A stretch of DNA of 64,000 nt from Arthrobacter mangrovi (GTDB lineage Bacteria; Actinomycetota; Actinomycetes; Actinomycetales; Micrococcaceae), in assembly GCF_026011795.1 (NCBI RefSeq), contig NZ_BRVS01000026.1:124001-188000 (forward strand), written 5' to 3'. The position numbers were made by a program, and so were the translations under genes. The notes under the pieces are model-generated. The model saw only the letters and a program-made list of their open reading frames with translations, was not told the origin of the DNA and ran no database searches. Below, piece by piece: positions 8,788 through 39,319 of this stretch; the stretch's first letter is position 1, and each line of letters starts with the position of its first letter.

Positions 8788-8842
8788 ACGATAGGCCTCC
8801 GCATCTATGCGCGTCCAAGCTAAAGTATGGACCGAACGATGC
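8788..8842 (-). promoter_or_regulatory. Candidate LysR-type operator with promoter (site A)
   Basis: On the minus strand, CTTGGACGCGCATA at 8806-8819 gives a -35 box TTGGAC, and 19 bases on a -10 box TATCGT (8788-8793). It precedes the 2-hydroxyacid dehydrogenase at 8744. GTCCA (8813-8817), ten bases, then TGGAC (8828-8832) form a dyad ending in CGAACGATGC. The 37-bp block 8806-8842 closely matches 39283-39319 and more loosely 30901-30937 and 31859-31895. Binding by a LysR protein is inferred from position. Confidence 0.6.
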
Positions 8843-8855
8843 GAGGAGTGTATTG

Positions 8856-9770
8856 ATGTTCAGCCTGATCCAGCTCCAGTCCTTTGTCGCCGTCGCCGAA
8901 GAGCTGCACTTCGGGGCGGCCGCCGAACGGCTCAACATGACGCAGCCTCCGCTGAGCCGGCAGATCCAGCTGCTGGAGAAGGAACTGCGGGCGCCGCTCT
9001 TCGACCGGACCAGCCGCAAGGTGGAGCTCACGGATGCCGGCAGGACGCTGCTGCCCAGCGCGCGGCAGATCCTGGACATGGCGGTCAAGACGGAGCTGGA
9101 CGTGCGGAGGGTTGCCACCGGCGAGGCCGGCTCGGTCACCATCGCCTACACCGCGATTGCCGGCCAAAGCGCCCTGCCCAGGCTCCTGCGCCGGGCGGCG
9201 GACGAGCAGCCCGGCGTCTCGCTGATCCTGCGCGAGCTGGTGTCGACGGACCAGATGGACGGCCTGGTCAAGGGCACGGTGGACATCGGGCTGCTGCGGC
9301 CCATCGTGGCGCGGCCCGGCGTTGTTTCGCGTCCCCTGATGCGGGACCGGCTGGTGATCGCGCTGCCGGCCGACAGCGAGCTTTCCGGCGAGGGCGCCCT
9401 GCCGGTGCGGGCGCTCGAGGGGCAGCCCCTGATGATGTATTCGACGGCCGAGGCCCGCTACTTCCACGACCTGGTCCTGCGGCTCTTCGCCAGCGCCGGC
9501 GCGCATCCGAACGTCACGCAGTACGCCAGCCAGGTCCCCGCCCTGCTGGCCTTCGTGGAGGCCGGCCTCGGGTTGACCCTGGTGCCGGCCTCGGCCCAGT
9601 CGTTCGCCCCGGCCGGCGTGCAGTTCCGGGAACTCGAGCCCTCGCGCGGCGTCAAGGACCTGAACCGGGTGGACCTCGAGGTGGCCTGGAACGAGAACAA
9701 CACCAACCCGGCCGTCCGCAGGCTGCTGGAGCTGCTCGAAACACCGGCGGAGGACGAAAGCCCCGTTTGA
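8856..9770 (+). CDS. LysR family transcriptional regulator
   Basis: This 304-residue regulator has an N-terminal winged helix-turn-helix (residues 1-60) beginning MFSLIQLQSFVAVAEELHFG and containing AAERLNMTQPPLSRQIQ. A ligand-binding domain follows from about residue 90. GAGGAG lies eight bases before ATG 8856. The N-terminal domain is very like that of the LysR protein at 30962, notably AVAEELHFG and MTQPPLSRQIQ, so the two could recognise related DNA. It is divergent from the 2-hydroxyacid dehydrogenase and probably controls it through site A. Confidence 0.9.
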   Translation: MFSLIQLQSFVAVAEELHFGAAAERLNMTQPPLSRQIQLLEKELRAPLFDRTSRKVELTDAGRTLLPSARQILDMAVKTELDVRRVATGEAGSVTIAYTAIAGQSALPRLLRRAADEQPGVSLILRELVSTDQMDGLVKGTVDIGLLRPIVARPGVVSRPLMRDRLVIALPADSELSGEGALPVRALEGQPLMMYSTAEARYFHDLVLRLFASAGAHPNVTQYASQVPALLAFVEAGLGLTLVPASAQSFAPAGVQFRELEPSRGVKDLNRVDLEVAWNENNTNPAVRRLLELLETPAEDESPV

Positions 9771-9824
9771 GGTATTCCATCCCGCGCCGGCCCTTCGTAC
9801 CCTAGGGCTGGGAGGTGTTCAGGA

Positions 9825-10016
9825 ATGAAGGCAACGCAGGGTGACAGGATCATCGTCCGCGGCAGGACCGTGGAGTCGTCCGACCGGCACGGGGAGATCC
9901 TGGAAGTACGGGGTGAGGACGGGGCTCCGCCCTATTTCGTGAGGTTCGACGACGGGCACGAGTCGGTGCTCTTCCCGGGCGGGGACTTCGTGGTGGAGGC
10001 GCGGCCGGTGCCCTAG
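9825..10016 (+). CDS. DUF1918 domain small protein
   Basis: This 63-residue protein starts MKATQGDRIIVRGRTVESSD and ends with a PYFVRFDDGHESVLFPG segment. I recognise the DUF1918 family, short beta-rich SH3-like proteins common in actinobacteria. Their function is not established. GGAGG lies upstream of ATG 9825. It stands alone between a LysR gene and a convergent thioredoxin gene. Confidence 0.8.
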   Translation: MKATQGDRIIVRGRTVESSDRHGEILEVRGEDGAPPYFVRFDDGHESVLFPGGDFVVEARPVP

Positions 10017-10036
10017 CCGCGCCAGTCCCGCCTGTC

Positions 10037-10468
10037 CTAAGCGGAGGCCAGCGAGCGGTCCAGCCATGCACGCAGCGCCGCTGCCGGCGCCGCGCCGGCC
10101 TGCTGTGCCGCGATCCGGCCGTCGATGAGGACCATGAGGGTGGGGATCGACTGGATCCGGAACCGAGCGGACAGCCCGGGCGCCGCGTCCACGTCCACCT
10201 TGACGAGCTTGATCCTGCCGGCGCGCTCGTGCGCCAGCTGGTCCAGCACAGGACTGACCATGCGGCAGGGGCCGCACCAGGCCGCCCAGAAGTCGACGAG
10301 TACGGGCACCGGCGACTGCTCGGCGATGGCGGCGAAATCGGAGTCACCGGCCGGGACGATCCACGGCAGGTCCTGGTGGCAGTTGCCGCAGCGGGGCCGG
10401 CCCGAGGCCGCGGCCGGAACCCGGTTGGCCTTGCCGCAGTGCGGGCACTTCACGATGGCGTTCTCCAC
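10037..10468 (-). CDS. trxC: Thioredoxin with N-terminal zinc motif (Trx2/TrxC type)
   Basis: This 143-residue protein has two N-terminal CxxC pairs (CPHC near residue 9 and CGNC near residue 28), forming the zinc-binding domain of thioredoxin 2. A normal thioredoxin fold follows, with active site WAAWCGPC and the cis-proline loop SIPTLMVL. It reduces protein disulfides in the cytoplasm. The start is GTG 10468; no ATG fits, and the zinc motif begins within ten residues of this GTG. The longer frame upstream lies antisense to the neighbouring oxidoreductase gene. It is convergent with the DUF1918 gene. Confidence 0.88.
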   Translation of the reverse strand: MENAIVKCPHCGKANRVPAAASGRPRCGNCHQDLPWIVPAGDSDFAAIAEQSPVPVLVDFWAAWCGPCRMVSPVLDQLAHERAGRIKLVKVDVDAAPGLSARFRIQSIPTLMVLIDGRIAAQQAGAAPAAALRAWLDRSLASA

Positions 10469-10534
10469 ACCGGGAGTGTACTGCGTCGGGACAGCGGGCG
10501 GAATGGACGACGGCGGTGCGGCGTTGAGCCGGAC

Positions 10535-11596
10535 ATGGAGCGTATTGGTTTTCTGTCCTTTGGCCACTGGGGGCCGGGCCGCGGGTCCCGCACCCGCTCG
10601 GCGCGCGAGGCGCTGCTGCAGGGAATCGAGCTGGCGGTGGCCGCCGAGGAGCTCGGCATCGACGGCGCGTTCTTCCGGGTGCACCACTTCGCCCGGCAGC
10701 AGGCGGCCCCGTTCCCGCTGCTCGCGGCAATCGCGGCGCGCACGTCCCGGATCGAGATCGGCACCGGCGTGATCGACATGCGCTACGAAAATCCGCTCTA
10801 CATGGCGGAGGAAGCGGCCGCCACGGACCTGATCAGCGGTGGCCGGCTCCAGCTCGGCATCAGCCGGGGATCCCCCGAACCGGCGAGGGACGGCGCCGCC
10901 TCGTTCGGCTACGTGCCCGCCGAGGGCGAGACGCCGGCGGACATGGCGCGGCGCCACACCGAGGTGTTCCGGCATGCGATCGTCGGCGGGGGAGTGGCGG
11001 AGGCGGACCCGCAGTACACCGGCGCCTCCGGGCTGCTGCCGATCCAGCCGACGTCCTATGACCTGCCGCAGCGGATCTGGTGGGGCGCCGGGACCCGGAA
11101 GACCGCCGTATGGGCCGCCGAACAGGGCATGAACCTGATGAGTTCCACGCTGCTGACCGAGGACACGGGCGTGCCCTTCGACGAACTGCAGGCCGAGCAG
11201 ATCCGGATGTTCCGCCAGGCCTGGAAGGCCGCCGGGCACAGGTTCCGGCCGCGGGTTTCGGTCAGCCGCAGCGTGATGCCGATCGTCGACGACGAGGACC
11301 GGATGTACTTCGGTGGCCGCGCCGGAGAGGGGAGCGACCAGGTCGGGATGATCGACGGCTTGCTCTCGCGCTTCGGCCGCACCTACACCGGCGAGCCGGA
11401 CATCCTGGCCCGCGAACTCGCGGAGGATGCCGCGGTGCGCGAGGCCGACACGCTGATGCTCACGGTCCCGAACCAGCTCGGTGTCGCCTACAACGCCAAG
11501 CTGCTGGGGAACATCGCCCGCTACATCGCGCCGGAACTCGGGTGGCGGGGCAAGGCGGCCGCGACGGCGGAGGACGGGGTCAGGGAGCGCGGCTGA
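10535..11596 (+). CDS. LLM-class (luciferase-like) flavin/F420-dependent oxidoreductase
   Basis: This 353-residue protein starts MERIGFLSFGHWGPGRG and carries typical bacterial-luciferase-like barrel segments: GIELAVAAEELGIDGAFFRV near residue 30 and the IEIGTGVIDMRYENPLYMAE block near residue 70-90. Such enzymes use FMN or F420 for monooxygenation or hydride transfer. Which cofactor applies here is not visible. ATG 10535 lies 66 bases from the thioredoxin start on the other strand, so the two share a short divergent promoter region. Substrate unknown. Confidence 0.8.
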   Translation: MERIGFLSFGHWGPGRGSRTRSAREALLQGIELAVAAEELGIDGAFFRVHHFARQQAAPFPLLAAIAARTSRIEIGTGVIDMRYENPLYMAEEAAATDLISGGRLQLGISRGSPEPARDGAASFGYVPAEGETPADMARRHTEVFRHAIVGGGVAEADPQYTGASGLLPIQPTSYDLPQRIWWGAGTRKTAVWAAEQGMNLMSSTLLTEDTGVPFDELQAEQIRMFRQAWKAAGHRFRPRVSVSRSVMPIVDDEDRMYFGGRAGEGSDQVGMIDGLLSRFGRTYTGEPDILARELAEDAAVREADTLMLTVPNQLGVAYNAKLLGNIARYIAPELGWRGKAAATAEDGVRERG

Positions 11597-11621
11597 CCCG
11601 CCGCGGCCCGCTGGCGGCGGC

Positions 11622-12005
11622 CTACTGCAGGCCGCGCAGCCGGTCCATCTCCCGGCGGTCCTTCTTGGTAGGCCGGCCGGCGCCGCGGTCCCGCTGCGGC
11701 AGCCCGAGCGCCGGCATCGGCGGCCGCTCCGGGGTGTGGTCGGTGAAGCAGTGCGAGGCCGCCTCCGCGCCGACCCGCTTGGCGATCAGCCGGCGCACCT
11801 CAAGGATCCGTTCGTAGCCCGGCTGGCGGACCCGGATCGTGTCTCCGGCAACCACCGTCTGCGAGGCCTTGGCCGGGTTGCCGTTCAGCCGTACGTGGCC
11901 GGCGCGGCAGGCAGCCGTGGCGGCCGAGCGCGTCTTGTAGGCGCGGATGGCCCAAAGCCAGGCATCGATCCGGACGGAGGAGGGGGCGGTCGGCAGCGCG
12001 GTCAT
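11622..12005 (-). CDS. S4-domain RNA-binding protein (Hsp15-like)
   Basis: This 127-residue basic protein has an S4 fold at residues 10-70: RIDAWLWAIRAYKTRSAA, then CRAGHVRLNGNPAKASQ and VVAGDTIRV. The C-terminus is rich in Arg/Lys/Asp (PTKKDRREMDRLRG). This matches the Hsp15/YrfH family, which in other bacteria binds stalled 50S subunits carrying nascent chains. It is convergent with the LLM gene. Ribosome binding here is inference from family. Confidence 0.85.
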   Translation of the reverse strand: MTALPTAPSSVRIDAWLWAIRAYKTRSAATAACRAGHVRLNGNPAKASQTVVAGDTIRVRQPGYERILEVRRLIAKRVGAEAASHCFTDHTPERPPMPALGLPQRDRGAGRPTKKDRREMDRLRGLQ

Positions 12006-25750: not shown

Positions 25751-25779
25751 GAGTCCCGGCCCCGCCGGGCCCGTCAGCC
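25745..25779. terminator. Bidirectional hairpin between convergent genes
   Basis: GGCTGA (25745-25750) pairs with TCAGCC (25774-25779), with an inner CCGGC/GCCGG stem. The outer arms contain the stop codons of both converging genes (24704 and 25774 genes). Confidence 0.5.
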
Positions 25780-26721
25780 GAGCAGCAGGGCCACGAGCAG
25801 GACGGCGGGCAGGGATAGCAGCGAGCTGAGGAGGATGATGTCGCGCACGAGGGTGGACCGGATTCCGAACTGGCTGGAGAACAGGAAAACGTTCTGGGCC
25901 GTCGGCAGGGCGGCCATGATGACGACGCCGAGCAGCTGCACGCCGTCGACCCCGAAGAGGAAGCGGGCCACGGCCCACGCGATCAGGGGCATCAGCGCGA
26001 GTTTGATGATCGAGCCGAGGGCGACGTCGGCCCGCACGCGGCGCTCGGAGAGCGGCTTCTGCCCGTAGAGGCTCATGCCGAAGAGCATCAGGAGCATCGG
26101 AATGGAGGCGTGGCCCAGCATCTCGACCGGGGTCCAGAGCACCTCGGGCAGGTGCAGCCCGGTCACCGACATGAGGGCGCCGGCGGCGGTGGCTACGGTG
26201 ACCGGGTTGGCGATGGACTTGACCAGGGTGCGGCCGAGCGGCGCGGTGGCGCCGTCGTTAGCTGCCGTACGGTTGCGGGCGCTCCAGGCGAAGAGGGACA
26301 GGTACACCGGCGCGATGACCAGCAGCTGCGCCAGCAGCACGGAGACCACGGGTGCCGAGCTGCCCACCGCGTAGAGCGCAATCGGGATGCCGATGTTGCC
26401 GGCGTTCACGTACGAAGCGGCCATGGCGCCGACGGCGGTCCGCGCCCCGGACCGCCGCAGCACCAGCCGGGCAACCAGCGCGTAGAGGCCGCCGGCCAGC
26501 GCGGCCGTGATCAGCGCGATCGGCGTGTAGACGCCGATGACGGCGGCCAGGTCGGTCTCGGCGAGCAGGATGAACATCAGCGCGGGGTTGGTGATGTAGT
26601 AGATGGCCGGTGTCAGGCCCTTCTGCATGGCCGGAGTCTGCTGCGGGAGCAGCGCCGCCGCGCCGAAACCGACGGCGACCAGCGCCAGGACTACTCCGAA
26701 ACCGAGCAGTACGCCTTCCAA
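25774..26721 (-). CDS. AEC family transporter (auxin-efflux-carrier-like permease)
   Basis: This 315-residue protein has about ten predicted membrane helices in two halves, starting EGVLLGFGVVLALVAVGFGA. The mid-protein AASYVNAGNIGIPIALYAVG carries the conserved NxGNxGxP element of AEC carriers, which move malate, other organic acids or auxin-like compounds. The start codon appears to be TTG 26721, preceded at close spacing by GAGGAGG. It lies downstream of the glucarate dehydratase gene but after a strong terminator. Substrate unknown; an organic acid is plausible. Confidence 0.85.
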   Translation of the reverse strand: MEGVLLGFGVVLALVAVGFGAAALLPQQTPAMQKGLTPAIYYITNPALMFILLAETDLAAVIGVYTPIALITAALAGGLYALVARLVLRRSGARTAVGAMAASYVNAGNIGIPIALYAVGSSAPVVSVLLAQLLVIAPVYLSLFAWSARNRTAANDGATAPLGRTLVKSIANPVTVATAAGALMSVTGLHLPEVLWTPVEMLGHASIPMLLMLFGMSLYGQKPLSERRVRADVALGSIIKLALMPLIAWAVARFLFGVDGVQLLGVVIMAALPTAQNVFLFSSQFGIRSTLVRDIILLSSLLSLPAVLLVALLLG

Positions 26722-26842: not shown

Positions 26843-28171
26843 CTAGCGGACCAGGCAGGGACGCTTGGGATCGAACTCCCAGCCCGGCACCAGGTACTGC
26901 ATGGAGACGGCGTCGTCGCGGGCGCCGAGTCCGTGCTCCAGGTACAGGGCATGCGCCTCGGCCAGCCGTTCGCGGTCCAGCTCGATGCCGAGTCCGGGGG
27001 CGTCCGGCACCTTGATCTCGCCGTCGCGGATCAGCAGCGGGTCGCGGGTCAGGCCCTGCCCGTCCTGCCAGATCCAGTGCGTGTCCAGCGCGGTGATCTC
27101 GCCCGGCGCGGCGGCACCGACGTGGGTGAACATGGCCAGCGAGATATCGAAGTGGTTATTCGAATGCGAGCCCCAGGTGAGTCCGAATTCGTGGCACAGC
27201 TGCGCCACGCGGACGGACCCGGCCATGGTCCAGAAGTGCGGATCGGCCAAGGGAATATCGACGGCGTTCGAGCGCACCGCGTGCGACATTTCCCGCCAGT
27301 CCGTGGCGATCATGTTGGTCGCGGTCTGCAGCCCGGTGGCCCGGCGGAACTCGGCCATGACCTCGCGGCCGGAGAACTTGCCCTCGGCGCCGCACGGGTC
27401 CTCCGCGTAGGCGACGACGCCGCGCATCCGCTTGCCCAGCCGGATGGCGTCCTGCAGCAGCCAGCCGCCGTTCGGATCCAGGGTGATCCGGGCGTCCGGG
27501 AAGCGCTCCTTCAGCGCGGTCACGGCGTCGACCTCGAGGTCGCCGGCCTGGACCCCGCCCTTGAGCTTGAAGTCCTGGAAGCCGTAGCGGGCCTGCGCGG
27601 CCTCGGCAAGCCGGACAACCGCGGCAGGAGTCATGGCCTCCTCGCGGCGCACCCGCTCCCAGTCGTCGGCGCCGTTGGGCTCGCGCAGGTAGGGCAGGTC
27701 CGTGCTGTCCGGGTTGCCGACGTAGAAGAGGTAGCCGAGCATCGGCACCGCCGAGCGCTGCTGCCCGTCCCCGAGCAGCTCGGCCACCGGCACGCCGAGG
27801 AACTGCCCGTGCAGGTCCAGCAGGGCGGACTCGACGGCGGTCACCGCGTGCACGGTGGTCCGCAGGTCGAAGGTCTGCAGGCCCCGGCCGCCCGAGTCGC
27901 GGTCCGCGAACGCAGTGGCGATGTCGCGGAGCAGGGAGCGGAAGCGGGCCACCGGCTGGCCGCTGATGATCCGGCCGGCGTCCTCGATGGTGGCCCGGAT
28001 CTTCTCGCCGCCGGGCACCTCGCCCAGGCCGGTGCGGCCCTCGGAGTCGGTGATGATGACGACGTTGCGGGTGAAGAACGGCCCGTGCGCGCCGGAGAGG
28101 TTCAGGAGCATCGAGTCATGCCCGGCGACCGGGACGACCTCGACGGCGGCGATGGTTGGCTGGGTGCTCAT
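26843..28171 (-). CDS. gudD: Glucarate dehydratase
   Basis: This 442-residue enolase-superfamily enzyme dehydrates D-glucarate (and often L-idarate) to 5-dehydro-4-deoxyglucarate. The KxK base is in FQDFKLKGG (near residue 205-210). Metal ligands follow: Asp of LDPNGGW, Glu of YAEDP, Asn of ATNMIATD. The Asp/His pair is in ADPHFW and SHSNNHFDI. All expected GlucD residues are present. It is preceded by the semialdehyde dehydrogenase with a 3-base gap and ends at a strong terminator. The last residues [12 protein letters not shown] match the family C-terminus. Confidence 0.93.
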
Positions 28172-28174: not shown

Positions 28175-29776
28175 TTACTCTCCCGCGCGCTTGACGGTGC
28201 CGTCGACGCGGCGGTTGAGCCGCCACGGATTCGCGTCCTGAACCGGGGCCGGCAGCAGGCCGTCCGGAATGTTCTGGTACGCCACGGGCCGGAGGAAACG
28301 TTCGATCGCCAAGGTGCCGACCGACGTCGTACGCGAATCCGACGTGGCCGGGAACGGGCCGCCGTGGACCATCGCGTGCCCGACCTCGACGCCGGTGGGC
28401 CAGCCGTTGGCGAGGATGCGTCCGGCCTTGCGCTCCAGGACCGGCAGCAGCGGGGCCACGGTGGCGTGGTCCTCGTCCGTCAGGTGCAGCGTGGCGGTCA
28501 GCTGGCCTTCGAGGCGGCGGGCGGCGGCGACGAGTTCCTCGGCCGAGGCGTAGCGGATGATCAGCGAGGCCGCGCCGAAGATCTCGTCGTGCAGGACCTG
28601 GTTGGACAGGAAGGTGTCCACCGTGGTGCCGAAGACGGTCGGGGCGGGGGCGTTCTCGGTCTCGCCGTCCTGTCCCTTGGCCACGAGTTCGACACCGGCC
28701 TGGGAGCCGAGCGCCTCCACGCCGGTCTGCCAGGACTCGGCAATGCCCTTGGTGAGCATGGTCTGGCCCGGTGCCGTGGCGAGGGCGCGGTTGACGGCGG
28801 CGGCGAAGCGGTCTCCGGTCTCGCCGGCCGGCACGAAGACCAGGCCGGGGGCCGTGCAGAGCTGGCCGCTGGAGCCGGTGACGGAGGCGGTGTAGGCCTG
28901 GGCCAGCGCCTCGAGGTCGCCCTTGAGCGCGCCGTCGAAGAAGAAGACCGGGTTGATGGAGCTCATCTCGGCGTAGACCGGGATGGGTTCGGGGCGGGCC
29001 GCGGCGGTCGCCATCAGGGCGGTGCCGCCGGAGCGGGATCCGGTGAAGCCCACGGCCTTGATCGCCGGGTCGGCGACCAGGGCCTGGCCGATGCTGGTGC
29101 CGGGGCCGTAGACCAGGGAGAAGACGCCGGGGTGCAGGCCGCTGTCGCGCACGGCGTCGGTGATCGCCCGGCCGACGATCTCGCTGGTGCCCGGGTGGGC
29201 GTTGTGGGCCTTGAAGACCACCGGGCAGCCGGCGGCCAGCGCGGAGGCGGTGTCGCCGCCGGCGGTGGAGAAGGCGAGCGGGAAGTTGCTGGCGCCGAAG
29301 ACCGCGACCGGGCCGAGGGCGACCTTGCGCTGGCGGATGTCCACGCGGGGCATCGGCTGGCGCTCGGGCTGTGCCGGGTCGATCCGCACGCCGCGGTGGT
29401 CGCCCTGCCGCACGACCTGCGCGAAGAGGCGCAGCTGGCCGGTGGTGCGGCCGCGCTCGCCGTTCAGCCGGGCCTCCGGCAGGCCGGTCTCGGCCATTGC
29501 ACGCTCGACCAGCTCAGCGCCGGAGGCCTCGATGTTGTCCGCGATCATCTCGAGGAAGGCGGCGTGGGTTTCCGGGTCGAGCGAGCTGAAGCTCTCGAAG
29601 GCCTCTTCGGCGGCGGCGGTGGCGGCGGCGAGCTGGTCGACGTCGATCAGCGAGTAGGCCGGTTCCAGGACCTCGTTGGTGCGCGGGTCGAAGCCGTTCA
29701 TGGTGCGGCCGTTGCCGGCCACCTGCTCGCCGGCAATGATCGACTGGCCGGCCAGCGTGGTTTCTGTCGTGGGCAT
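28175..29776 (-). CDS. 2-oxoglutarate semialdehyde (2,5-dioxovalerate) dehydrogenase
   Basis: This 533-residue NADP-type aldehyde dehydrogenase has the long form typical of alpha-ketoglutaric semialdehyde dehydrogenases. The cofactor region contains GPVAVFGASNFPLAFSTAGG. The base glutamate is in VYAEMSSINPVFFF and the nucleophilic cysteine in SSGQLCTAPGLVF. It oxidises 2-oxoglutarate semialdehyde, the product of KdgD, to 2-oxoglutarate. It lies between kdgD upstream and glucarate dehydratase downstream, completing the hexarate pathway. A hairpin separates it from kdgD. Confidence 0.92.
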   Translation of the reverse strand: MPTTETTLAGQSIIAGEQVAGNGRTMNGFDPRTNEVLEPAYSLIDVDQLAAATAAAEEAFESFSSLDPETHAAFLEMIADNIEASGAELVERAMAETGLPEARLNGERGRTTGQLRLFAQVVRQGDHRGVRIDPAQPERQPMPRVDIRQRKVALGPVAVFGASNFPLAFSTAGGDTASALAAGCPVVFKAHNAHPGTSEIVGRAITDAVRDSGLHPGVFSLVYGPGTSIGQALVADPAIKAVGFTGSRSGGTALMATAAARPEPIPVYAEMSSINPVFFFDGALKGDLEALAQAYTASVTGSSGQLCTAPGLVFVPAGETGDRFAAAVNRALATAPGQTMLTKGIAESWQTGVEALGSQAGVELVAKGQDGETENAPAPTVFGTTVDTFLSNQVLHDEIFGAASLIIRYASAEELVAAARRLEGQLTATLHLTDEDHATVAPLLPVLERKAGRILANGWPTGVEVGHAMVHGGPFPATSDSRTTSVGTLAIERFLRPVAYQNIPDGLLPAPVQDANPWRLNRRVDGTVKRAGE

Positions 29777-29875: not shown

Positions 29876-30832
29876 TCAGGCAGGCTGTGCCATGGCGGCG
29901 TCCCGCGGGCGGACGCCCGCGGCGTCGATCAGGGCGGACAGGTCCGCGACGTCCTGCTCGGTCAGGTCCTGCAGCGGCGGGCGGACGGAGCCGGCGTCGC
30001 GGCCGATAGCCTTCAGGCCGCCCTTGACGATGGAGACGCCGTAGCCCTTGGCACGGTCGCGGATGTCCAGGTAGGGCAGCACGAAGCGGTTCAGCTTCTC
30101 GTTGACGGCGACGCGGTCCTGGTTGCGCACGTCGCGGTAGAACTCGAGCGCGAACTCCGGCACGAAGTTGTACATCGCGGAGGAGTAGGTGCTCATGCCC
30201 AGCTGCAGCAGCGGCAGGGCGAAGGTCTCGGCGGTGGGCAGGCCGCCGAGGTAGAACAGCCGGTCGCCGTTCTTCGCGTAGACCTTGGTGAGGTGCTCGA
30301 TGTCGCCGAGCGCGTCCTTGAAACCGATGAAGTTCGGGTGGCGGTCCGCCAGCTTCGCGACGGTGTCCGCGGAGTAGACGGCGTTGGCGCGGTTGTAGAC
30401 GATGACGCCGATGCTGGTAGCGGAGCAGACGGCGGAGACGTGGGCCAGCAGGCCGGCCTGGTCGCACTCGGTGAGGTACGGCGGCAGCAGCAGGAGGCCC
30501 TCGGCCCCGGCGGCTTCGGCGTCCTTGGCGTTCTGGATGGCCTGCGCGGTGGAGCCGCCGGCGGAGGCCAGCACCGGCACGCGGCTGCCGGCTTCTTCCA
30601 CGGCCATCCGGACGACGCGGGCGGACTCTTCCGGGGTCAGGCTGAAGCCCTCGCCCGTGCCGCCGGCGGCGAAGAGCCCGGCGACGTCGAAGCTGGACTG
30701 CCACGCGAGGTGCGTGCGGTAGGCGGCTTCGTCGATCTTCAGGTCGGCGTCGAACGCGGTGACCGGGAAGGAGAGCAGGCCTTCCTTGAGCTTGTCGGCG
30801 AGTTCCTGGGGCGTGTACTGGGCCACGTGCAT
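29876..30832 (-). CDS. kdgD: 5-dehydro-4-deoxyglucarate dehydratase
   Basis: This 318-residue DapA-superfamily enzyme dehydrates and decarboxylates 5-dehydro-4-deoxyglucarate to 2-oxoglutarate semialdehyde. It has the [15 protein letters not shown] carboxylate-binding loop, the tyrosine in VIVYNRANA and the Schiff-base lysine in IGFKDALGD. Start: ATG 30832 has a Shine-Dalgarno (AAAGGA) only two bases away. GTG 30826 has it at eight bases and may be the real start, giving 316 residues. A candidate LysR-controlled promoter lies 69 bases upstream of the ATG. Confidence 0.93.
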
Positions 30833-30882: not shown

Positions 30883-30937
30883 ACCCTAGGAAGGGTTGAT
30901 GATGCCTGTCCAAGCCCTATTTTGTATGGATTGATGC
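30883..30937 (-). promoter_or_regulatory. Candidate LysR operator and promoter of kdgD (site C)
   Basis: Plus-strand GATGCCTGTCCAAG (30901-30914) reads on the other strand as a TTGGAC -35 box. TAGGGT follows 19 bases later (30883-30888) as -10. The 37-bp block ends in GGATTGATGC at 30937. It is closest to site D (28 of 37 positions the same) and resembles sites A and B. Confidence 0.65.
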
Positions 30938-30961
30938 AGGAAAGGCATTACGGCGGCGGGC

Positions 30962-31846
30962 TCAGGCGGTTCGCTCCCAGACGACCTCGAGCAGCTGCCG
31001 CAGCGCCGGGTTGTGTCCCGCCCTGGTCCAGATCGCGTGCAGCTCCACGGTGTCCGAGGCGACGTCGGCCAGCCGAAGGTACGCCACGCCCTCGACGCCG
31101 AGCAGCCGGGCGGACTCCGGGACGAAGGCGACCCCGCGCCCGGCGGCGACGAGGGCCACCATGGTCAGGACCTGGCTAACCTCGTGTACGACGTTGGCAT
31201 GTTCGAACGGAATGTGCCGGACCACCAGGTCGTAGAAGTAGCGGGCCTTGACGGGCGAATGCATGATCAGCGGGACGTCCTTCAGGTCCGCCGCCGCCAC
31301 CGGCCGGGTGAGCCGGTCCAGTTCGTGGCCGGCCGGCACCGCCAGTTGCAGGTCCTCGGAGAGCAGCAGGTGGGATTTGAACCGCTCGGTATCGAAGGGC
31401 GGGCGGGCCAGCCCGAGGTCCAGGTCGCCGTCGAGCAGGGCCTGGACCTGTTCGCTGGTGACCAGTTCCTGCAGCTCCACGTCCACGTCCGGCAGTTCGG
31501 TGGAAATCTGTTCCAGCAGCGGGCCCAGGAGGCTGAAGGCCGACGCCGCGGTGAAGCCGATGCGCAGTTCGCCGGCCTGGCCCGCGGCGATGCGGCGGGC
31601 CGTGACCGGTGCGCGGTCGGCGGCGATCACCAGCCGGCGCGCCTCGCCAAGGAAGGCCCGGCCGGCCGCGGTCAGGCTGACCTTGCGGTTGTCCCGTTCC
31701 AGGAGGTCGACGCCGATGCTCCGCTCCAGCTTCTGGATCTGGCGGCTGAGCGGCGGCTGGGTCATCCGCAGCCGTTCGGCCGCCCGGCCGAAGTGGAGTT
31801 CCTCGGCGACGGCGATGAAACTGCGGGCTTGGTCGAGGGTGTACAT
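30962..31846 (-). CDS. LysR family transcriptional regulator of the sugar-diacid genes
   Basis: This 294-residue regulator begins MYTLDQARSFIAVAEELHFG, with recognition region AAERLRMTQPPLSRQIQ. The effector domain starts near residue 90 and includes LQELVTSEQVQALLDGDLD. It is flanked by kdgD on one side and is divergent from the TTT transporter on the other, so it probably controls both. Candidate sites C and D lie just past each end of the gene. The effector is likely a hexarate or a pathway intermediate, by inference. Confidence 0.9.
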   Translation of the reverse strand: MYTLDQARSFIAVAEELHFGRAAERLRMTQPPLSRQIQKLERSIGVDLLERDNRKVSLTAAGRAFLGEARRLVIAADRAPVTARRIAAGQAGELRIGFTAASAFSLLGPLLEQISTELPDVDVELQELVTSEQVQALLDGDLDLGLARPPFDTERFKSHLLLSEDLQLAVPAGHELDRLTRPVAAADLKDVPLIMHSPVKARYFYDLVVRHIPFEHANVVHEVSQVLTMVALVAAGRGVAFVPESARLLGVEGVAYLRLADVASDTVELHAIWTRAGHNPALRQLLEVVWERTA

Positions 31847-31858
31847 GATGCCTTCCAG

Positions 31859-31913
31859 GTATTACTCAATGCAGTATTGGGCTTGGACATGCATCATAGT
31901 GGTTTCCTAAGCT
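31859..31913 (+). promoter_or_regulatory. Candidate LysR operator and promoter of the TTT operon (site D)
   Basis: CTTGGACATGCATC (31882-31895) supplies a TTGGAC -35 box, with TAAGCT (31908-31913) 19 bases on as -10 for the transporter at 31992. The upstream part ATTACT-N6-AGTATT (31861-31878) is an imperfect LysR-type dyad. The block starts 13 bases from the LysR start, so it may also serve autoregulation. Confidence 0.65.
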
Positions 31914-31991: not shown

Positions 31992-32990
31992 GTGAAAGCA
32001 TTTCCCCTCCGCCGGGCCGTCGTCGGCCTGGCCTCTGCCTCCGCCGTCCTGGCGCTGACGGCCTGCGGCGGCAACGTGGGCTCCGGCTCGGCGTCCGAAG
32101 AGGAGTTCCCGACCAAGCCGATCAACGTCACCGTTGGCGCCGCAGCCGGCGGTTCGACCGACCTGATCGCCCGCGCCATCGCCGAGGGTGCCTCCGATGA
32201 CCTCGGCGTAGCCATGCCGGTCGTCAACAAGCCGGGTGCCAACGGCGCGCTCGCCCTCAAGGAGACCCAGGGCAAGCCTGCCGACGGCTACGAGCTGGCC
32301 ACCCTGAACGCCTCGCTGGTCACCATCACTCCGCTCGCCGTCAGCGAGTCCGAGGCCGTGTCGCTCGATGACGTTGACGTCATCGTCGGGCTGTCCCAGG
32401 ACGACTACGTGATGGTCGCCAGCCCCGAGGCCGGGGTCAAGTCCGTGGAGGACCTGACCAAGAAGGACAACCTCAGCTTCGGCACCACCGGCGTGGGCAC
32501 CGGATCCCAGCTGGCCCAGGCCCTGCTGCTGAAGCAGGCCAAGATCAACGGCACCGAAGTGCCGTTCGACTCCGGGGCTCCGGCCGTCACCGCCGTCCTG
32601 GGCAACCAGGTGCAGGTGGCCACCGTCCAGCTGGGCGAGGCCAAGGCACAGATCGATGCCGGCAAGCTCGTTCCGATCGTCGTCTTCTCGACCGAGCGCA
32701 ACAAGTTCCTGCAGGACGTCCCGACGGCGACCGAAGAGGGCTACGACATTCCGGTTTCCCAGTACCGCGCCATGGTTGCGCCGAAGGGTACCCCCGAGGA
32801 GGTCAAGGAACGGCTGAAGACCTCGTTCGAGAACACCTTCAAGACCGAGGCCTACCAGAAGTTCAATGAGCAGAACCTGCTGACCCCGAAGGAGATCTCC
32901 GGCGAGGAAGTCATCTCCGAATGGACCGAACTCGCGAAGAAGTACAAGGACCTGACCGCCGAGTACGACATCGACCTGAAGCAGAGCTAA
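31992..32990 (+). CDS. Tripartite tricarboxylate-type transporter, substrate-binding lipoprotein (TctC/Bug family)
   Basis: This 332-residue secreted binding protein starts at GTG 31992, seven bases after AAGGAG. Its signal peptide ends in the lipobox LTACGG (cysteine near residue 27). The mature part starts with the family block FPTKPINVTVGAAAGGSTDL, then KPGANGALALKE. It delivers an organic diacid to the TctA/TctB membrane proteins encoded next. With glucarate enzymes and their LysR beside it, a hexarate ligand is the best guess, though TctC proteins bind many carboxylates. Confidence 0.92.
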   Translation: MKAFPLRRAVVGLASASAVLALTACGGNVGSGSASEEEFPTKPINVTVGAAAGGSTDLIARAIAEGASDDLGVAMPVVNKPGANGALALKETQGKPADGYELATLNASLVTITPLAVSESEAVSLDDVDVIVGLSQDDYVMVASPEAGVKSVEDLTKKDNLSFGTTGVGTGSQLAQALLLKQAKINGTEVPFDSGAPAVTAVLGNQVQVATVQLGEAKAQIDAGKLVPIVVFSTERNKFLQDVPTATEEGYDIPVSQYRAMVAPKGTPEEVKERLKTSFENTFKTEAYQKFNEQNLLTPKEISGEEVISEWTELAKKYKDLTAEYDIDLKQS

Positions 32991-33021: not shown

Positions 33022-33558
33022 ATGAATGAGACAGCCAAAGCGATCCCGGTTCCGACGGAATCGGACGAGGACCTTACCCCGGAGCAGCTCGCTGCCCAGT
33101 GGGAGGCCGAAGCGCCGCCATCCGCGGGACCAGTCGCCAACTTCGCCGCGTCGCTGGTGGCGACCGTGCTGGGCATCATCGGCATTGTCCTGTCCGTCCG
33201 GCTGGGACTGGGCACGCCCAGCCAGCCCCAGCCGGGACTGTGGCCGTTCATCATGAGCCTCGTTATTACGGTGCTGGGCCTGGCGCAGCTGGTCGTCGGC
33301 AGGAAAGGCGGGGAGGGCGAGAAGTTCTCCCGCCTGTCCTGGCTCGTGCTTTTCGGCGCCGCCACCCTCATCGGCCTCGTGGCGCTGATGCCCGTCATCG
33401 GCTTCGAGATCCCGTCCCTGCTGCTGAGCTTCATCTGGATGAAGTTCCTCGGCGGCGAAACGTGGCGCTCGGCCGTGCTCTACTCCGTCCTGGTTGTCGC
33501 GGCGTTCTACGGCATCTTCATCCTGGGCCTGGGGACCACCATCCCCCACCTGTTCTAA
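33022..33558 (+). CDS. TTT transporter small membrane subunit (TctB family)
   Basis: This 178-residue protein has a charged N-terminus of about 45 residues and then four hydrophobic helices: FAASLVATVLGIIGIVLSVR, FIMSLVITVLGLAQLVV, LVLFGAATLIGLVALMPVIG and VLYSVLVVAAFYGIFILGLG. That is the TctB topology. It assists the large TctA subunit. The 31-base gap after tctC and the 22-base gap before tctA indicate one operon. Confidence 0.88.
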   Translation: MNETAKAIPVPTESDEDLTPEQLAAQWEAEAPPSAGPVANFAASLVATVLGIIGIVLSVRLGLGTPSQPQPGLWPFIMSLVITVLGLAQLVVGRKGGEGEKFSRLSWLVLFGAATLIGLVALMPVIGFEIPSLLLSFIWMKFLGGETWRSAVLYSVLVVAAFYGIFILGLGTTIPHLF

Positions 33559-33580
33559 CGGTCCTAGAAAGGCTCCACGC

Positions 33581-35116
33581 ATGGACTTCCTGCAACCGGT
33601 GCTGGACGGCTTCGGCGTCGTACTGGCTCCCACCAACCTTCTGTACTGCCTGCTCGGCGTCGTCATCGGCATGCTGATCGGCGTGCTGCCGGGCCTCGGC
33701 CCCGCGGCCACGATCGCCATCCTGCTGCCGCTGACCTACGGCATCGATCCCGTCACCGCCATCATCATGCTGGCCGGCATCTTCTACGGCGCCCAGTACG
33801 GCGGAACCATCACCTCCGTGCTGCTGCGCCTGCCCGGCGAGGCCAGCTCCGTGGTCACCGTCTTCGACGGCTACCAGCTCGCCAAGCAGGGCAAGGCCGG
33901 CACCGCCCTCGGCATCGCCGCGATCGGCTCCTTCGTCGGCGGCACGATCGGCATCGTCGGCCTGACCTTCCTGGCCCCCATCGTCGCCGGCTTCGCCCTG
34001 GACTTCGGTCCGCCCGAGTATGCCGCGCTGGCCCTCCTGGGCATTCTGCTGGTCGCCACCATCAGCAACGGCAGCAAGACCAAGGCCCTGATCGCGGCGG
34101 CCCTCGGCCTGCTGCTGGCCACCGTGGGCCGCGACGTCTTCACCGGCGCCGAGCGCTTCACCTTCGGCAACCTGGACCTGGCGGACGGGATCGACTTCGT
34201 CCCCGTCGCCATGGGCCTGTTCGGCCTCGGCGAGATCCTCTACAACCTGGAAGAGCGCCACCGCGCGGCCAAGGCACCGGCCAAGGTGGCCAACGTCTGG
34301 CCCTCGCGCGCCGACCTGAAGCAGTCCTCCGGCGCCATCGGACGCGGCTCGGTCCTCGGGTTCTTCCTCGGGATCCTGCCCGGCGGCGGCGCGACCATCT
34401 CCTCGCTGGCGGCCTACGCCCTGGAAAAGAAGCGGTCCAAGAACCCCGAGCGCTTCGGCAAGGGCGCCGTCGAAGGCGTCGCCGCTCCCGAGACCGCCAA
34501 TAACGCCGCCGCGACCAGCTCCTTCATCCCGCTGCTGACGCTGGGCATCCCGGCCAACGCCACCATGGCGCTGATGTTCGGCGCGCTGCTGATCCAGGGC
34601 GTCACCCCCGGACCGCAGCTGGTGGACCAGCACCCGGACCTGTTCTGGGGCGTGGTCAACTCGATGTACATCGGCAACATCCTGCTGCTGATCATGTCCA
34701 TCCCGCTCGTCGGCATCTTCGTCAAGATCCTCCGCGTCCGCGCCGCCATCCTGGCACCGGTCACCGCCTTGATCACCATGCTGGGCGCCTATACGATCAA
34801 CAACTCGATGTTCGACGTCGTGCTGGTCGTCGCCTTCGGCATCATCGGCTACCTGATGAAGAAGTTCGGGTTCGAGCCCGGGCCGCTGGTCCTGGCGTTC
34901 GTGCTCGGCTCGCTCCTGGAAGCCAACCTGCGCCGCTCCCTGCTGGTGCTCAACGGCGACCTGGGCGGTTTCTTCGGCCGCCCGATCTCGGCCACCCTGC
35001 TGGTGATCTTCGTCTTCGTCGCTGTCTGGCCGATGATCCAGTCCCTGCTGGCCAAGCGGAAGGCGAACCACGCCCTCGTAACCTCCACGTCACAGAAAGC
35101 CAAGGAAACAGTATGA
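33581..35116 (+). CDS. TTT transporter large membrane subunit (TctA family)
   Basis: This 511-residue protein of about twelve helices is the transport subunit. It has the family motif GVLPGLGPAATIAILLPLTY near residue 30-50, YGGTITSVLLRLPGEASSVV after it, and an internal repeat copy around GFFLGILPGGGATISSLAAY. AAAGG lies just upstream of ATG 33581. The last four bases overlap the start of the UspA gene (ATGA), so the two are translationally coupled. Uptake would be driven by an ion gradient, as in the family. Confidence 0.92.
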   Translation: MDFLQPVLDGFGVVLAPTNLLYCLLGVVIGMLIGVLPGLGPAATIAILLPLTYGIDPVTAIIMLAGIFYGAQYGGTITSVLLRLPGEASSVVTVFDGYQLAKQGKAGTALGIAAIGSFVGGTIGIVGLTFLAPIVAGFALDFGPPEYAALALLGILLVATISNGSKTKALIAAALGLLLATVGRDVFTGAERFTFGNLDLADGIDFVPVAMGLFGLGEILYNLEERHRAAKAPAKVANVWPSRADLKQSSGAIGRGSVLGFFLGILPGGGATISSLAAYALEKKRSKNPERFGKGAVEGVAAPETANNAAATSSFIPLLTLGIPANATMALMFGALLIQGVTPGPQLVDQHPDLFWGVVNSMYIGNILLLIMSIPLVGIFVKILRVRAAILAPVTALITMLGAYTINNSMFDVVLVVAFGIIGYLMKKFGFEPGPLVLAFVLGSLLEANLRRSLLVLNGDLGGFFGRPISATLLVIFVFVAVWPMIQSLLAKRKANHALVTSTSQKAKETV

Positions 35117-35517: not shown

Positions 35518-35534
35518 CCCGGGAGGGAAAGCAG

Positions 35535-36294: not shown

Positions 36295-36383
36295 GTTACG
36301 GCCGGAGCCGGGACCTCCCGCCGCGGCCGGAAGGCGCGGGGGAGCGGCGGCGGTCCTCGCGGCAGGCGCCCGCTTAAGGCACG

Positions 36384-37829
36384 TCAGGCCTTCGAGGTCC
36401 GCTCCGTTTCCTCCCCGAAGGACGGGATCATGCCGCGCACCTTGTCCGCCCACGCCGGGAAGCGCTCGGGGAAGCTGGCCTGCAGCACGTCCAGCATGAT
36501 GGGAACCGAGGCGGAGGCGCCGGGCGATGCGCCGAGCAGCGCGGCGAGCGAGCCGCCCGCTGAGGTCACGACCTCGGTGCCGAAGCCAGCGATCGTTCCC
36601 CTGCCCTTGACCCTCTTGACGACCTGCACGCGCTGGCCGGCCGTGATCCACTCCCAGTCCGCCGGGTCGGCGTCGGGAACGAAGCGGCGCAGCTCGGCGA
36701 ACCTCGCCCGCGGGGTCTGCAGGATCTGCCGCACCAGGTAGGCCACCAGTCCGGCGTTGTCGCGGGCCGCGGAAAGCAGCGTCGGCAGGTTGGCCGGGCG
36801 GATGGAACGCGGCAGGTCCAGCAGCGAACCGGACTTGAGGAACCGCGGGGAGAAGGCGCCGTAGGGACCGAACATCAGGTACTCCCGGCCATCGACCACG
36901 CGGGTGTCCAGATGCGGCACGGAAATGGGCGGGGCGCCGTCGGCCGCGTGGCCATAGACCTTGGCCCGGTGGCGCGCCACCAGTTCGGGCTTCGAGGTCC
37001 GGTAAAAGCAGCCGCTGATCGGGAATCCGCCGAAGGAGCGGGTCTCCGGCACCCCCGCCAGCTGCAGCAGGGGCAGCGTTGCCCCGCCCGCGCCCAGGAA
37101 GACGTAGCGGGCCGAAAGGCTCCGGACGCGCCCCGGCGAGCGGGACGTGACCAGCCAGCGGCCGCGCTCCCGGGCCAGCCCGGTGACTTCCTCGCGCAGC
37201 CTTGTCTCTGCCCCGCCGGCGGCGGCATCGGCCAGCAGCCGCCGGGTCAGGACGCCGTAGTCGACGTCGGTGCCGTCCGCCACGCGGGTTGCGGCCACCT
37301 GCCCGCCGGGTTCCCGGCCGGCGAACATGAGCGGCAGCCAGCGGGCCAGCACCGCCGGATCCTCGGAGTACTCCATCGCCGCGAACGGCGGCCGGCCCGC
37401 CATGGCACAGTGGCGGGCGCGCAGGTACTCCACCCCGCGGGGCCCGTGGGCGAAGCTGAAGTGCGGGACCGCGCGGATGAAGCCGGCCGGGTCCCCGAGG
37501 CCTCCCTCCGCGGCCAGGTGCGCCCAGTACTGGCGGGACTGCCGGAACTGCGCATTGATCCTCAGCGCGCTGGAAATGTCCACCCCGCCGTCGGACGTGC
37601 GGGGCGTGTAGTTGAACTCGCACAGCCCGGCGTGCCCGGTGCCGGCGTTGTGCCAGGCATGGGAGCTCTCCAGCCCGGCCTCCGGCAACCGCTCGAGCAC
37701 GGCAATTCGCCACCCCGGCTCGAGCCGGACCAGCAGGCTGGCCAGGGTGGCACCCATGATCCCCGCGCCGACGATGACGGCGTCGAATCCATCGGACATG
37801 GGGTCCATCGATGGCGGGTGTGGTTTCAT
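36384..37829 (-). CDS. mqo: Malate:quinone oxidoreductase
   Basis: This 481-residue FAD-dependent peripheral membrane enzyme oxidises malate to oxaloacetate and passes electrons to quinone. The dinucleotide motif is DAVIVGAGIMGATLASLL. Family blocks include SSHAWHNAGTGHAGLCEFNY, DVDYGVLTRRLL and GGFPISGCFYRTSKPELVA. ATG 37829 is preferred: GGAG lies seven bases before it, while the frame-opening codon at 37832 is TTG. In this context it would help burn the 2-oxoglutarate delivered by hexarate breakdown, though mqo also serves general metabolism. Confidence 0.92.
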   Translation of the reverse strand: MKPHPPSMDPMSDGFDAVIVGAGIMGATLASLLVRLEPGWRIAVLERLPEAGLESSHAWHNAGTGHAGLCEFNYTPRTSDGGVDISSALRINAQFRQSRQYWAHLAAEGGLGDPAGFIRAVPHFSFAHGPRGVEYLRARHCAMAGRPPFAAMEYSEDPAVLARWLPLMFAGREPGGQVAATRVADGTDVDYGVLTRRLLADAAAGGAETRLREEVTGLARERGRWLVTSRSPGRVRSLSARYVFLGAGGATLPLLQLAGVPETRSFGGFPISGCFYRTSKPELVARHRAKVYGHAADGAPPISVPHLDTRVVDGREYLMFGPYGAFSPRFLKSGSLLDLPRSIRPANLPTLLSAARDNAGLVAYLVRQILQTPRARFAELRRFVPDADPADWEWITAGQRVQVVKRVKGRGTIAGFGTEVVTSAGGSLAALLGASPGASASVPIMLDVLQASFPERFPAWADKVRGMIPSFGEETERTSKA

Positions 37830-37894
37830 CAAGATTCTCCGCAGCTAGAGGCTCGTGCCGATGGTCGCCGCGCCGGTGGCCTGCCGTGCGCGGG

Positions 37895-39214
37895 CTACCA
37901 GCGGGGGCTTTCGAGGGTGTAGTCCGGATCGATGCGCTGCATGTAGCCCGTGTCGTCCCGGCTGGTCAGCCCGCAGTCCAGGTACTGGCGGTGCAGCTTT
38001 TCGAGGTTGTCCGCATCGAGTTCGACGCCGAGGCCGGGGGCGGTGGGCACCGCTACGGCGCCGTCGGTGAAGGTGAGGGCGCCGGGGGCGACGATGTCCT
38101 CGTCGCCCTTCTTCCAGGGCCAGTGGGTGTCGCAGGCGTAGTCGAGGTTGGGCGTGGCCGCGGCGAGGTGGACCATGGCGGCCAGGGAGATGCCCAGGTG
38201 GGAGTTGGAGTGCATGGACAGGCCCAGGCCGAAGGTCTCGGTGAGGCCGGCCAGGGTCTGGGAGCGGCGCAGGCCGCCCCAGAAGTGGTGGTCGGAAAGG
38301 ATGACGTCGACGGCTCCGGCGGCGATGGCCGGCGGCACGTCGTTGAAGGAGACGACGCACATGTTGGTGGCCAGCGGCATGGGCACGTTGGCGCGGACTT
38401 CGGCCATGCCCTCGATGCCGGGGGTCGGGTCCTCGAGGTATTCGAGGACGCCGTCGAGTTCCTTGCCGACCTTGATCGAGGTCTCGACGGTCCAGGCGGC
38501 GTTGGGGTCCAGGCGCAGCGGCAGGTCCGGAAACTCCTCGCGGAGCGCCTTGATCGCGGCGACTTCCTGGTCCGGTGCGAACACGCCGCCCTTCAGCTTG
38601 AGCGCGCTGAAGCCGTAGCCGTCGACCATGGTGCGGGCCTGGGCAACAATGCCGTCCGGATCCAGGGCCGGGCCCCACGGGTCCGGCTCGAAGCCGGGGT
38701 GGGTGGCCCATTTGTAGAACAGGTAGCCGCTGAACGCCACGGAATCGCGGACGGCGCCGCCGAGCAGGTCGCTGACCGGGCGGCCGAGGAGCTTGCCCTG
38801 GATATCGAGGGCGGCGACGTCGAAGGGGGACAGGACCCGGTCGGCCGTGGAGGAGCCGGTGACCATGCCGGACATGCCGTGGCCGCCCTGCACGGTATCG
38901 GCCGCCAGCGCGCGGGCGACGGCCTGGCGCATCCGGTTGATGTTGAAGACGTCGGCGCCGGTGAGTGCTTCCGCGGCGAGGTGCAGCCGCTGGAGGTGGC
39001 CGGCGTCGCCATAGGTTTCGCCGAGACCGGTCACGCCGGCGTCGGTATGGACCTGGACGATCGCCCGGAGCGCGAACGGCTCATGCACCCCGACGGTGTT
39101 CAGCAGCGGCGGATCCGCGAACGCCACCGGCGTGATCGTGATGCCCGTGATGGCAACCTGGCCGAGGTGCTCGGAGGAGAGACCGGTGACGGGCGCGGCG
39201 TCGGCGACAGACAT
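37895..39214 (-). CDS. Glucarate dehydratase-like enzyme of the enolase superfamily (second copy)
   Basis: This 439-residue paralogue of the glucarate dehydratase at 26843 differs clearly in sequence. It keeps the acid-sugar dehydratase residues: KLKGG base motif, Asp in LDPNAAW, Glu in YLEDP, Asn in LATNMCVV, Asp in LSDHHFW, His in MHSNSHLG. It should act on a hexarate, perhaps glucarate, idarate or another isomer. It has its own candidate LysR promoter (site B), with the same geometry and distance to the start as kdgD. No second KdgD is present, so the products probably converge. Confidence 0.87.
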   Translation of the reverse strand: MSVADAAPVTGLSSEHLGQVAITGITITPVAFADPPLLNTVGVHEPFALRAIVQVHTDAGVTGLGETYGDAGHLQRLHLAAEALTGADVFNINRMRQAVARALAADTVQGGHGMSGMVTGSSTADRVLSPFDVAALDIQGKLLGRPVSDLLGGAVRDSVAFSGYLFYKWATHPGFEPDPWGPALDPDGIVAQARTMVDGYGFSALKLKGGVFAPDQEVAAIKALREEFPDLPLRLDPNAAWTVETSIKVGKELDGVLEYLEDPTPGIEGMAEVRANVPMPLATNMCVVSFNDVPPAIAAGAVDVILSDHHFWGGLRRSQTLAGLTETFGLGLSMHSNSHLGISLAAMVHLAAATPNLDYACDTHWPWKKGDEDIVAPGALTFTDGAVAVPTAPGLGVELDADNLEKLHRQYLDCGLTSRDDTGYMQRIDPDYTLESPRW

Positions 39215-39265
39215 GGGGCGGAAGTCCTTTCACGAAAGAGCCCGGGAGGGCGCAAGATGCACTTC

Positions 39266-39319
39266 ACGCTAATCGCGGCAGTGATGCGTGTCCAAGATCA
39301 CTTATGCACCGAACGATGC
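39266..39319 (-). promoter_or_regulatory. Candidate LysR operator and promoter of the second glucarate-dehydratase-like gene (site B)
   Basis: Plus-strand GATGCGTGTCCAAG (39283-39296) gives a minus-strand TTGGAC -35 box, and TAGCGT (39266-39271) follows 18 bases on as -10. Over a 39-base alignment it matches site A at 30 positions, including the 12-base run CACCGAACGATGC/GACCGAACGATGC apart from one base. No LysR gene adjoins it, so control would be in trans. Confidence 0.65.

Follow-up and report, generated by a model that had tools for sequence, protein, structure and literature searches.

A predicted LysR-type operator-promoter shared by hexarate utilization genes in Arthrobacter mangrovi and other actinobacteria

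In a 64 000-nucleotide stretch of the Arthrobacter mangrovi genome (contig 26, positions 124001–188000; hereafter, the window), a common sequence element precedes genes for the utilization of sugar diacids (hexarates), as well as genes adjacent to two LysR-type transcriptional regulators (LTTRs), LysR1 and LysR2. The anatomy of this element, its conservation and its co-occurrence with the regulator genes make it quite probable that each site is a complete LTTR-controlled promoter, with LysR2 as the main regulator and LysR1 controlling the promoter next to its own gene. The original prediction, made from the window alone, had proposed a single LysR regulon with four 37-bp sites, at 8806, 30901, 31859 and 39283. 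All four are found where they were claimed to be and face the claimed genes, and the assignment to LysR operator-promoters stands, but two regulators rather than one appear to be involved, given that LysR1 and LysR2 form separate groups and that the 8806 site is of the LysR1 type. The regulon is also larger than the four loci, with at least two more sites, at 225–272 of the window and on contig 34 of the same genome (4.43 Mb, 52 contigs). The proposed link to sugar diacids is borne out by the targets, which include 5-dehydro-4-deoxyglucarate dehydratase (KdgD), glucarate dehydratase (GudD) and a tripartite tricarboxylate transporter (TctCBA).

Anatomy of the shared element

The full unit spans ~48 bp and consists of the box ATRC-N7-GYAT (with a T-N11-A core), a second ATRC, TTGGAC, GCAT and, 18–19 bases past TTGGAC, TAnnnT. 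The 37-bp element initially described captured about three quarters of this unit but missed the left arm; the GCATC that it placed 30 bases upstream of TTGGAC is present but starts 24 bases before it, so that 30 is reached only if TTGGAC itself is counted. On the minus strand, Site C (8806–8853; box ATAC-N7-GCAT at 8839–8853, TTGGAC at 8813–8818 and, after 19 bases, the -10 hexamer TATCGT at 8788–8793) is a predicted LTTR operator that faces the D-2-hydroxyacid dehydrogenase DH_C (7695–8744, minus strand). Site A (30901–30948, minus strand; TTGGAC at 30908–30913, spacer 19, TAGGGT at 30883–30888) is the predicted operator-promoter of kdgD (29876–30832, minus strand), Site B (31848–31895, plus strand; TTGGAC at 31883–31888, spacer 19, TAAGCT at 31908–31913) that of the tripartite transporter, beginning with the receptor gene tctC (31992–32990, plus strand), and Site D (39283–39330, minus strand; TTGGAC at 39290–39295, spacer 18, TAGCGT at 39266–39271) that of GlucD2, a glucarate-dehydratase-like enzyme of the enolase superfamily (37895–39214, minus strand). 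The newly identified Site E (225–272, minus strand; 37-bp part at 225–261, with the left arm extending to 272; TTGGAC at 232–237, TACGCT at 208–213) is the predicted operator-promoter of a second D-2-hydroxyacid dehydrogenase of 316 amino acids, the 5' part of which occupies 1–201 on the minus strand, with the start codon at 201 and the remainder past the left window edge. Transcription is predicted to start at ~8781 (Site C), ~30876 (Site A), ~31920 (Site B) and ~39259 (Site D), and a leaderless start at 201 is probable for Site E.

The anatomy was compared across 128 distinct sites from this genome, its own sites included, and from its relatives, each scoring at least 16 and facing its target; T-N11-A and TAnnnT lie outside the search matrix and played no part in finding the sites. 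T-N11-A is present in all 128 sites, whereas no other offset exceeds 53%; ATRC-N7-GYAT is exact in 102, and the left arm ATRC, at -10 to -7 of the 37-bp element, has A in 124, T in 128 and C in 126 sites. The -35/-10 pair, which had been proposed as TTGGAC followed after 18–19 bases by TAnnnT, occurs in all four sites and in 127 of the 128 (spacing 18 in 25 sites, 19 in 102), with at most one site at each of the other spacings from 10 to 39. Among 21 second-dehydrogenase promoters, 20 have the ATG 6 (15 promoters) or 7 (5 promoters) bases after the -10 hexamer, which independently supports both the -10 and the transcription start, and these messages are probably leaderless, with +1 at the first base of the ATG. 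Counted from this +1 at a spacer of 19, the center of the T-N11-A box falls at -65, ATRC spans -51 to -48 and GCAT -29 to -26. The layout inferred in this way is that expected of an LTTR promoter, with a putative recognition site near -65 and weaker candidate sites near -35, and the T-N11-A box lies, as is typical, in a dyad near a regulator gene.

The inner dyad GCAT-N6-ATGC was considered as the main LTTR box and rejected because T-N11-A is not conserved there but is conserved in the left-arm box. In Xanthobacteraceae, four loci encode a LysR protein beside TctC that is 48% identical to LysR2 and 46–47% identical to LysR1, and three of the four have the inner dyad, GCATC and, further on, TAGATT, without TTGGAC. 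These three related sequences hint that the half-sites are protein contacts whereas TTGGAC is the -35 element of the host.

Chance expectation and conservation of the sites

The sequence GATGCnTGTCCAAG is exact at three of the four sites and differs by 2 bases at 8806. Within the window, GATGCNTGTCCAAG with up to three mismatches yields 17 matches against 17.2 expected, so that only near-exact matches carry meaning. In the whole genome, CTTGGACNNGCAT occurs exactly five times, at the four known sites and on contig 34, compared with three occurrences in the reversed control. With up to three mismatches, the 30-base pattern has 13 matches versus 3 in the control; with up to two, the six matches are the four sites, the contig-34 site and one on contig 5. 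The contig-5 candidate (273752) was rejected because TTTGAC replaces TTGGAC and there is no left arm in register; the next frame encodes 164 amino acids. The contig-34 site, found by this whole-genome pattern search (TTGGAC-19-TAACGT), faces a major facilitator superfamily (MFS) permease for which the best models are HpaX (4-hydroxyphenylacetate) and galactonate transporters, both with scores below the cut-offs.

A weight-matrix scan of related genomes had been suggested as a check. Applied to fetched loci totaling 1.19 Mb, the matrix built from the sites of this genome gives 117 matches with scores of at least 16, and none when the same DNA is reversed; only the control count is unbiased because these loci were largely fetched for the motif or its LysR. 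In a sample of 149 Micrococcaceae genomes, from which 40 regions picked from element matches were fetched, the element with up to three mismatches has 117 matches in 48 genomes, with 10 in the reversed control. Facing sites are seen again before orthologues of kdgD, tctC, GlucD2, the second dehydrogenase and the permease. In orthologue sets that were not picked by the motif, the conservation anticipated by the original prediction holds for most members: a site precedes GlucD2 in 18 of the 21 genomes that encode it, the permease in four of five and, as an E-type site, the second dehydrogenase in 20 of 24 (partial in G035). The second dehydrogenase lacks a site in G062, G030, G010 and G057, the first three of which have no orthologue of LysR1 or LysR2.

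Orthologues of LysR2 (at least 50% identity) are present in 36 of the 149 genomes and those of LysR1 (at least 61%) in 18, all of which also encode LysR2. Random occurrence of the motif, which would have undone the proposed regulon, does not agree with its distribution: matches with up to two mismatches are found in 27 genomes, 26 of which have LysR2 (the exception is G015), whereas only 10 of the other 122 genomes do (Fisher test, 8e-20, relatedness ignored). The 19 genomes without LysR2 that have 3-mismatch matches only appear to owe these to chance, judging by the reversed control.

Loci fetched by regulator homology rather than by motif give the same picture. All eight such LysR2 loci in Micrococcaceae have a site scoring at least 26 before kdgD; the LysR2 of Arthrobacter crystallopoietes BAB-32 is 91% identical to that of A. 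mangrovi. In a held-out set of eight LysR2 loci (L110–L117) from genomes without a match at up to three mismatches, kdgD is present in seven, preceded by a site scoring 26–32 in six and by a weak match (12.6) in one; L117 has neither kdgD nor a match, and the same holds for a ninth locus, L118, which harbors the 54% LysR2 relative of G057. Six chosen non-orthologous LysR loci contain no match of at least 16 and one of 13.4; the five of these LysR proteins that are in the protein set have AQPPLSQQ or AQPALSQQ versus TQPPLSRQ in LysR1 and LysR2. The four most distant loci (L036–L039, 27–31% identical) contain no match of at least 12.

Across the class sample, a LysR2-like protein is encoded in 38 of 394 genomes, four of them from Micrococcaceae. 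In other families, 21 LysR2 loci were read (11 more match rows came without a locus), and 19 of these have at least one site scoring 16 or more beside the LysR gene. The sites mostly adjoin kdgD, tctC, gudD or GlucD2; several of those before kdgD are weaker (13–20), with GCAT displaced by one base. A third LysR clade is found beside GlucD2 in another actinobacterial family (L177–L181); in two of these five loci, L177 and L180, the box ATGC-N7-GCAT occurs close to the beginning of the LysR gene.

The two regulators, their predicted targets and a proposed history of GlucD2

LysR1 (8856–9770, plus strand, 304 amino acids) and LysR2 (30962–31846, minus strand, 294 amino acids) are 43% identical and share an identical TQPPLSRQIQ stretch. 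Both contain HTH_1 and LysR_substrate domains above the cut-offs, consistent with the N-terminal winged helix-turn-helix and the substrate-binding domain of LysR-type proteins. As is common for this class, the regulators are divergently arranged, LysR1 with DH_C or GlucD2 and LysR2 with TctC; kdgD lies in tandem, downstream of LysR2. In a tree of 93 LysR proteins (midpoint root, long branches flagged), LysR1 (18 proteins) and LysR2 (61) form separate groups, with 100/99 support each.

The LysR-flanking sites fall into two types as well: 83 precede kdgD or tctC, and 14 are of the same kind as the 8806 site. Their leave-one-out scores do not overlap (8.6 to 56.5 for the former versus -1.2 to -43.8 for the latter). 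The sorting was repeated without the seven inner bases because, in the LysR-adjacent boxes, these overlap LysR ribosome sites (the Site C box overlaps that of LysR1, and the left arm of Site B stops 1 base short of the LysR2 start codon), and the two types still separate without overlap. Scores on the LysR2 side are obtained for the permease sites and for most sites of the second dehydrogenase, two of the latter being at or just below zero, and the four D-type sites are slightly LysR2-like on all columns. By position and sequence, the 8806 site appears to belong to LysR1, whereas the contig-34 site and those at 225, 30901 and 31859 look like LysR2 sites. The genome G038, with a D-type and a permease site, LysR2 and no LysR1, makes LysR2 the simplest regulator for Site D. 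We infer that LysR2 best explains all sites except 8806, distant ones included, although less surely for Site D.

That LysR2 alone binds every site, 8806 included, with LysR1 fine-tuning or responding to another signal, seems rather unlikely. Such an arrangement would account for the common box grammar of all sites, the identical TQPPLSRQIQ in both proteins, the presence of LysR2 in all 18 genomes with LysR1 and the sites of G038, but it does not sit well with the occurrence of 8806-type sites beside LysR1 in every locus read, or with the non-overlapping scores of the two site types, which persist without the inner bases and are partly due to shared descent. Equally modest is the chance that LysR1 and LysR2 each recognize every site and together combine the signals of two inducers, which BenM and CatM are able to do. 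Site D, which combines features of both types, points in this direction, as does G057, where Site A is intact and LysR1 is present but neither LysR2 nor the transporter precedes kdgD (a 54% LysR2 relative is encoded elsewhere); the clear partition of the LysR-flanking sites speaks against such sharing. It is highly improbable that another factor, such as the GntR encoded at 39355, recognizes the shared element: its gene adjoins Site D and accompanies the cluster in many loci, but T-N11-A is present in 128 of 128 sites, close matches track LysR2, and in nearly all loci read it is LysR, not GntR, that adjoins the kdgD, tctC and 8806-type sites. Recently duplicated promoter DNA, or a common promoter without a common regulator, is harder still to credit; although the two GlucD2 copies of BAB-32 have different promoters, the sites are present in other families as well, and the operator arm, which lies 31–34 bases upstream of the -35, matches the promoter itself in conservation.

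Several observations weigh against assigning the sites to LysR2, with LysR1 at its adjacent promoter. The short core by itself is statistically weak in this genome, and boxes 2 and 3 show just one clear half apiece. TTGGAC, GCAT and the inner dyad were all in the search matrix, which makes their conservation circular in part, and the shared descent of orthologue promoters means that the 128 sites cannot be counted as so many independent events. On half-site columns alone, D-type sites are LysR1-like, which leaves Site D ambiguous, and control of Site D by LysR2 is weakened by the GlucD2 genes of G122, G110 and G046 (60–63% identical), which have no site in genomes with a LysR2 relative (50–68%) and no LysR1. 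The G104 permease lacks a facing site though both regulators are encoded, and the second dehydrogenase of G057 lacks one too, while G035 retains a partial site without a close LysR1 or LysR2. In G015 (L103, C21, ~7024–7060), which has no close LysR1 or LysR2 either, a good D-type site is followed by no regulon gene and is probably left over from a GlucD2 gene that has since disappeared. In other families, LysR2 is present without any match in L171 and in L166, which lies close to the end of a contig, and the five LysR-GlucD2 loci L177–L181 contain none.

Downstream of kdgD, the product of which exceeds the curated TIGR03249 cut-off, the minus strand encodes an aldehyde dehydrogenase (28175–29776), probably 2-oxoglutarate semialdehyde dehydrogenase by context, GudD (26843–28171; 802 bits, slightly below the 829 cut-off) and, last in the run, a permease of the Mem_trans family (25774–26721); tctC is followed by tctB and tctA (33022–35116, plus strand). 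With KdgD above its cut-off, GudD just under it and TctCBA, the predicted targets are those of a hexarate regulon.

The tie between DH_C and this pathway, originally proposed from the site alone, is strengthened by synteny: of the 21 genomes with GlucD2, 14 have a DH_C homologue (44–75%) immediately after it in the same orientation, and these are all 14 where GlucD2 is located at LysR1 and the downstream DNA is readable. No such homologue follows GlucD2 in A. mangrovi, G009, G038, G122, G110 and G046. BAB-32 (G002; L051, L109) carries two GlucD2 copies under different operators, one (93%) at LysR1 with a C-type site and the other (97% over 136 residues, cut by the contig end) with a D-type site beside GntR and a third enolase-family gene; this second locus is truncated, so the presence of DH_C there was not judged. 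BAB-32 appears to show the intermediate between duplication and relocation, and the simplest history would be that GlucD2 was copied to a second place and the original was later lost in A. mangrovi and G009, leaving Site C before DH_C. In G003 and G004 (L081, L083), a gene of the dihydrodipicolinate synthase (DHDPS) family, 34–39% identical to KdgD, separates Site C from GlucD2; this arrangement is suggestive of a dehydratase-aldolase-dehydrogenase branch. GlucD2 itself scores 275.6 bits against TIGR03247, far below the 828.7 cut-off for glucarate dehydratase, and the closest relative with a solved structure carries no firmer name than probable glucarate dehydratase; its KxK, HSNSHLG and DTHWPW stretches, which we take to be the catalytic motifs, fit an acid-sugar dehydratase in the alignment.

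Neighboring genes also accompany the cluster. A dipeptide-type ATP-binding cassette (ABC) importer (595–6164), between the two D-2-hydroxyacid dehydrogenases, stays nearby in many relatives; no operator of the shared type was seen facing it, and it may bring in a substrate of the hexarate pathway. The GntR (FCD) gene and the third enolase-superfamily gene (39355–41283) travel with the cluster, and no operator of this type was seen facing either.

A proposed switch and comparison with known systems

In the mechanism that we propose, which is modeled on BenM and CatM, the strong ATRC-N7-GYAT box centered near -65 would be gripped by one pair of the DNA-binding heads of an LTTR tetramer. Without inducer, the other pair would sit low, on the GCAT half-site near -28, across the -35 TTGGAC, blocking polymerase from the promoter and its -10 TAnnnT; once an inducer is present (probably a hexarate or an intermediate of the pathway), this pair would move about one turn up to the ATRC half-site near -50, so that the -35 would be both freed and aided. 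LysR2 would turn on kdgD, aldehyde dehydrogenase, gudD and the permease of that run, TctCBA, the unlinked MFS permease, the second dehydrogenase and, probably, GlucD2. LysR1 would be an old relative using the same type of box at its adjacent promoter, which ancestrally served GlucD2 and DH_C and here DH_C alone. Both regulators probably autoregulate because the operator reaches within 1–2 bases of their start codons.

Tentatively, and with somewhat less than an even chance, these observations can be extended to a broader scenario, in which two anciently separate LTTR clades use the same operator grammar within a single cell and together govern a modular hexarate regulon across actinobacteria, site differences setting the inducer, while an uncharacterized branch (GlucD2, in some relatives the DHDPS-family enzyme, the two D-2-hydroxyacid dehydrogenases and perhaps the dipeptide-type ABC importer) has been drawn into hexarate use. 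The proposed regulon for actinobacterial hexarate use is testable, with exact operators, and gives a place to orphan genes, namely, the GlucD2 group, both D-2-hydroxyacid dehydrogenases, the tripartite transporter and the MFS permease. Probable leaderless promoters and the strict 18–19 spacing would make it a clean model for LTTR action with actinobacterial RNA polymerase, and also for two LTTR relatives that share one operator grammar.

In Escherichia coli, the glucarate and galactarate genes are controlled by SdaR and include glucarate dehydratase and a hexarate MFS permease. Both are shared with the system described here, which differs in the type of regulator and in the KdgD route. The account of the GguR regulon of Halomonas, in the part pertinent here, describes a similar glucarate/galactarate operon with a predicted TctABC transporter (PMC5507952), but GguR is described there as a GntR-family protein whereas the regulators here are LysR proteins. 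No description of this LysR hexarate regulon was found in the literature searched, mostly outside subscription journals and, for the longer result lists, among the best matches, and the gene network seems to be undescribed.

The switch mechanism, in contrast, is of a known LTTR type. In the sliding-dimer scheme, as outlined for DntR (PMC4730206), a high-affinity site lies near -65 and two low-affinity sites lie lower, and the same layout is recognized here from sequence alone. BenM and CatM are among the solved proteins closest to LysR2, and the benA and catB operator-promoters, as far as the relevant part of the source describes them (PMC6628147), resemble the sites analyzed here: site 1 reads ATAC-N7-GTAT and contains T-N11-A, sites 2 and 3 depart from this pattern, induction shifts the contact from sites 1 and 3 to sites 1 and 2, and benA has a TTGAAC -35 beside site 2. 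The system in A. mangrovi differs in that the genes are for hexarates, not benzoate, the host is an actinobacterium, the GCAT half-site lies inside the 18–19-base spacer between -35 and -10, and the two LTTRs belong to separate groups.

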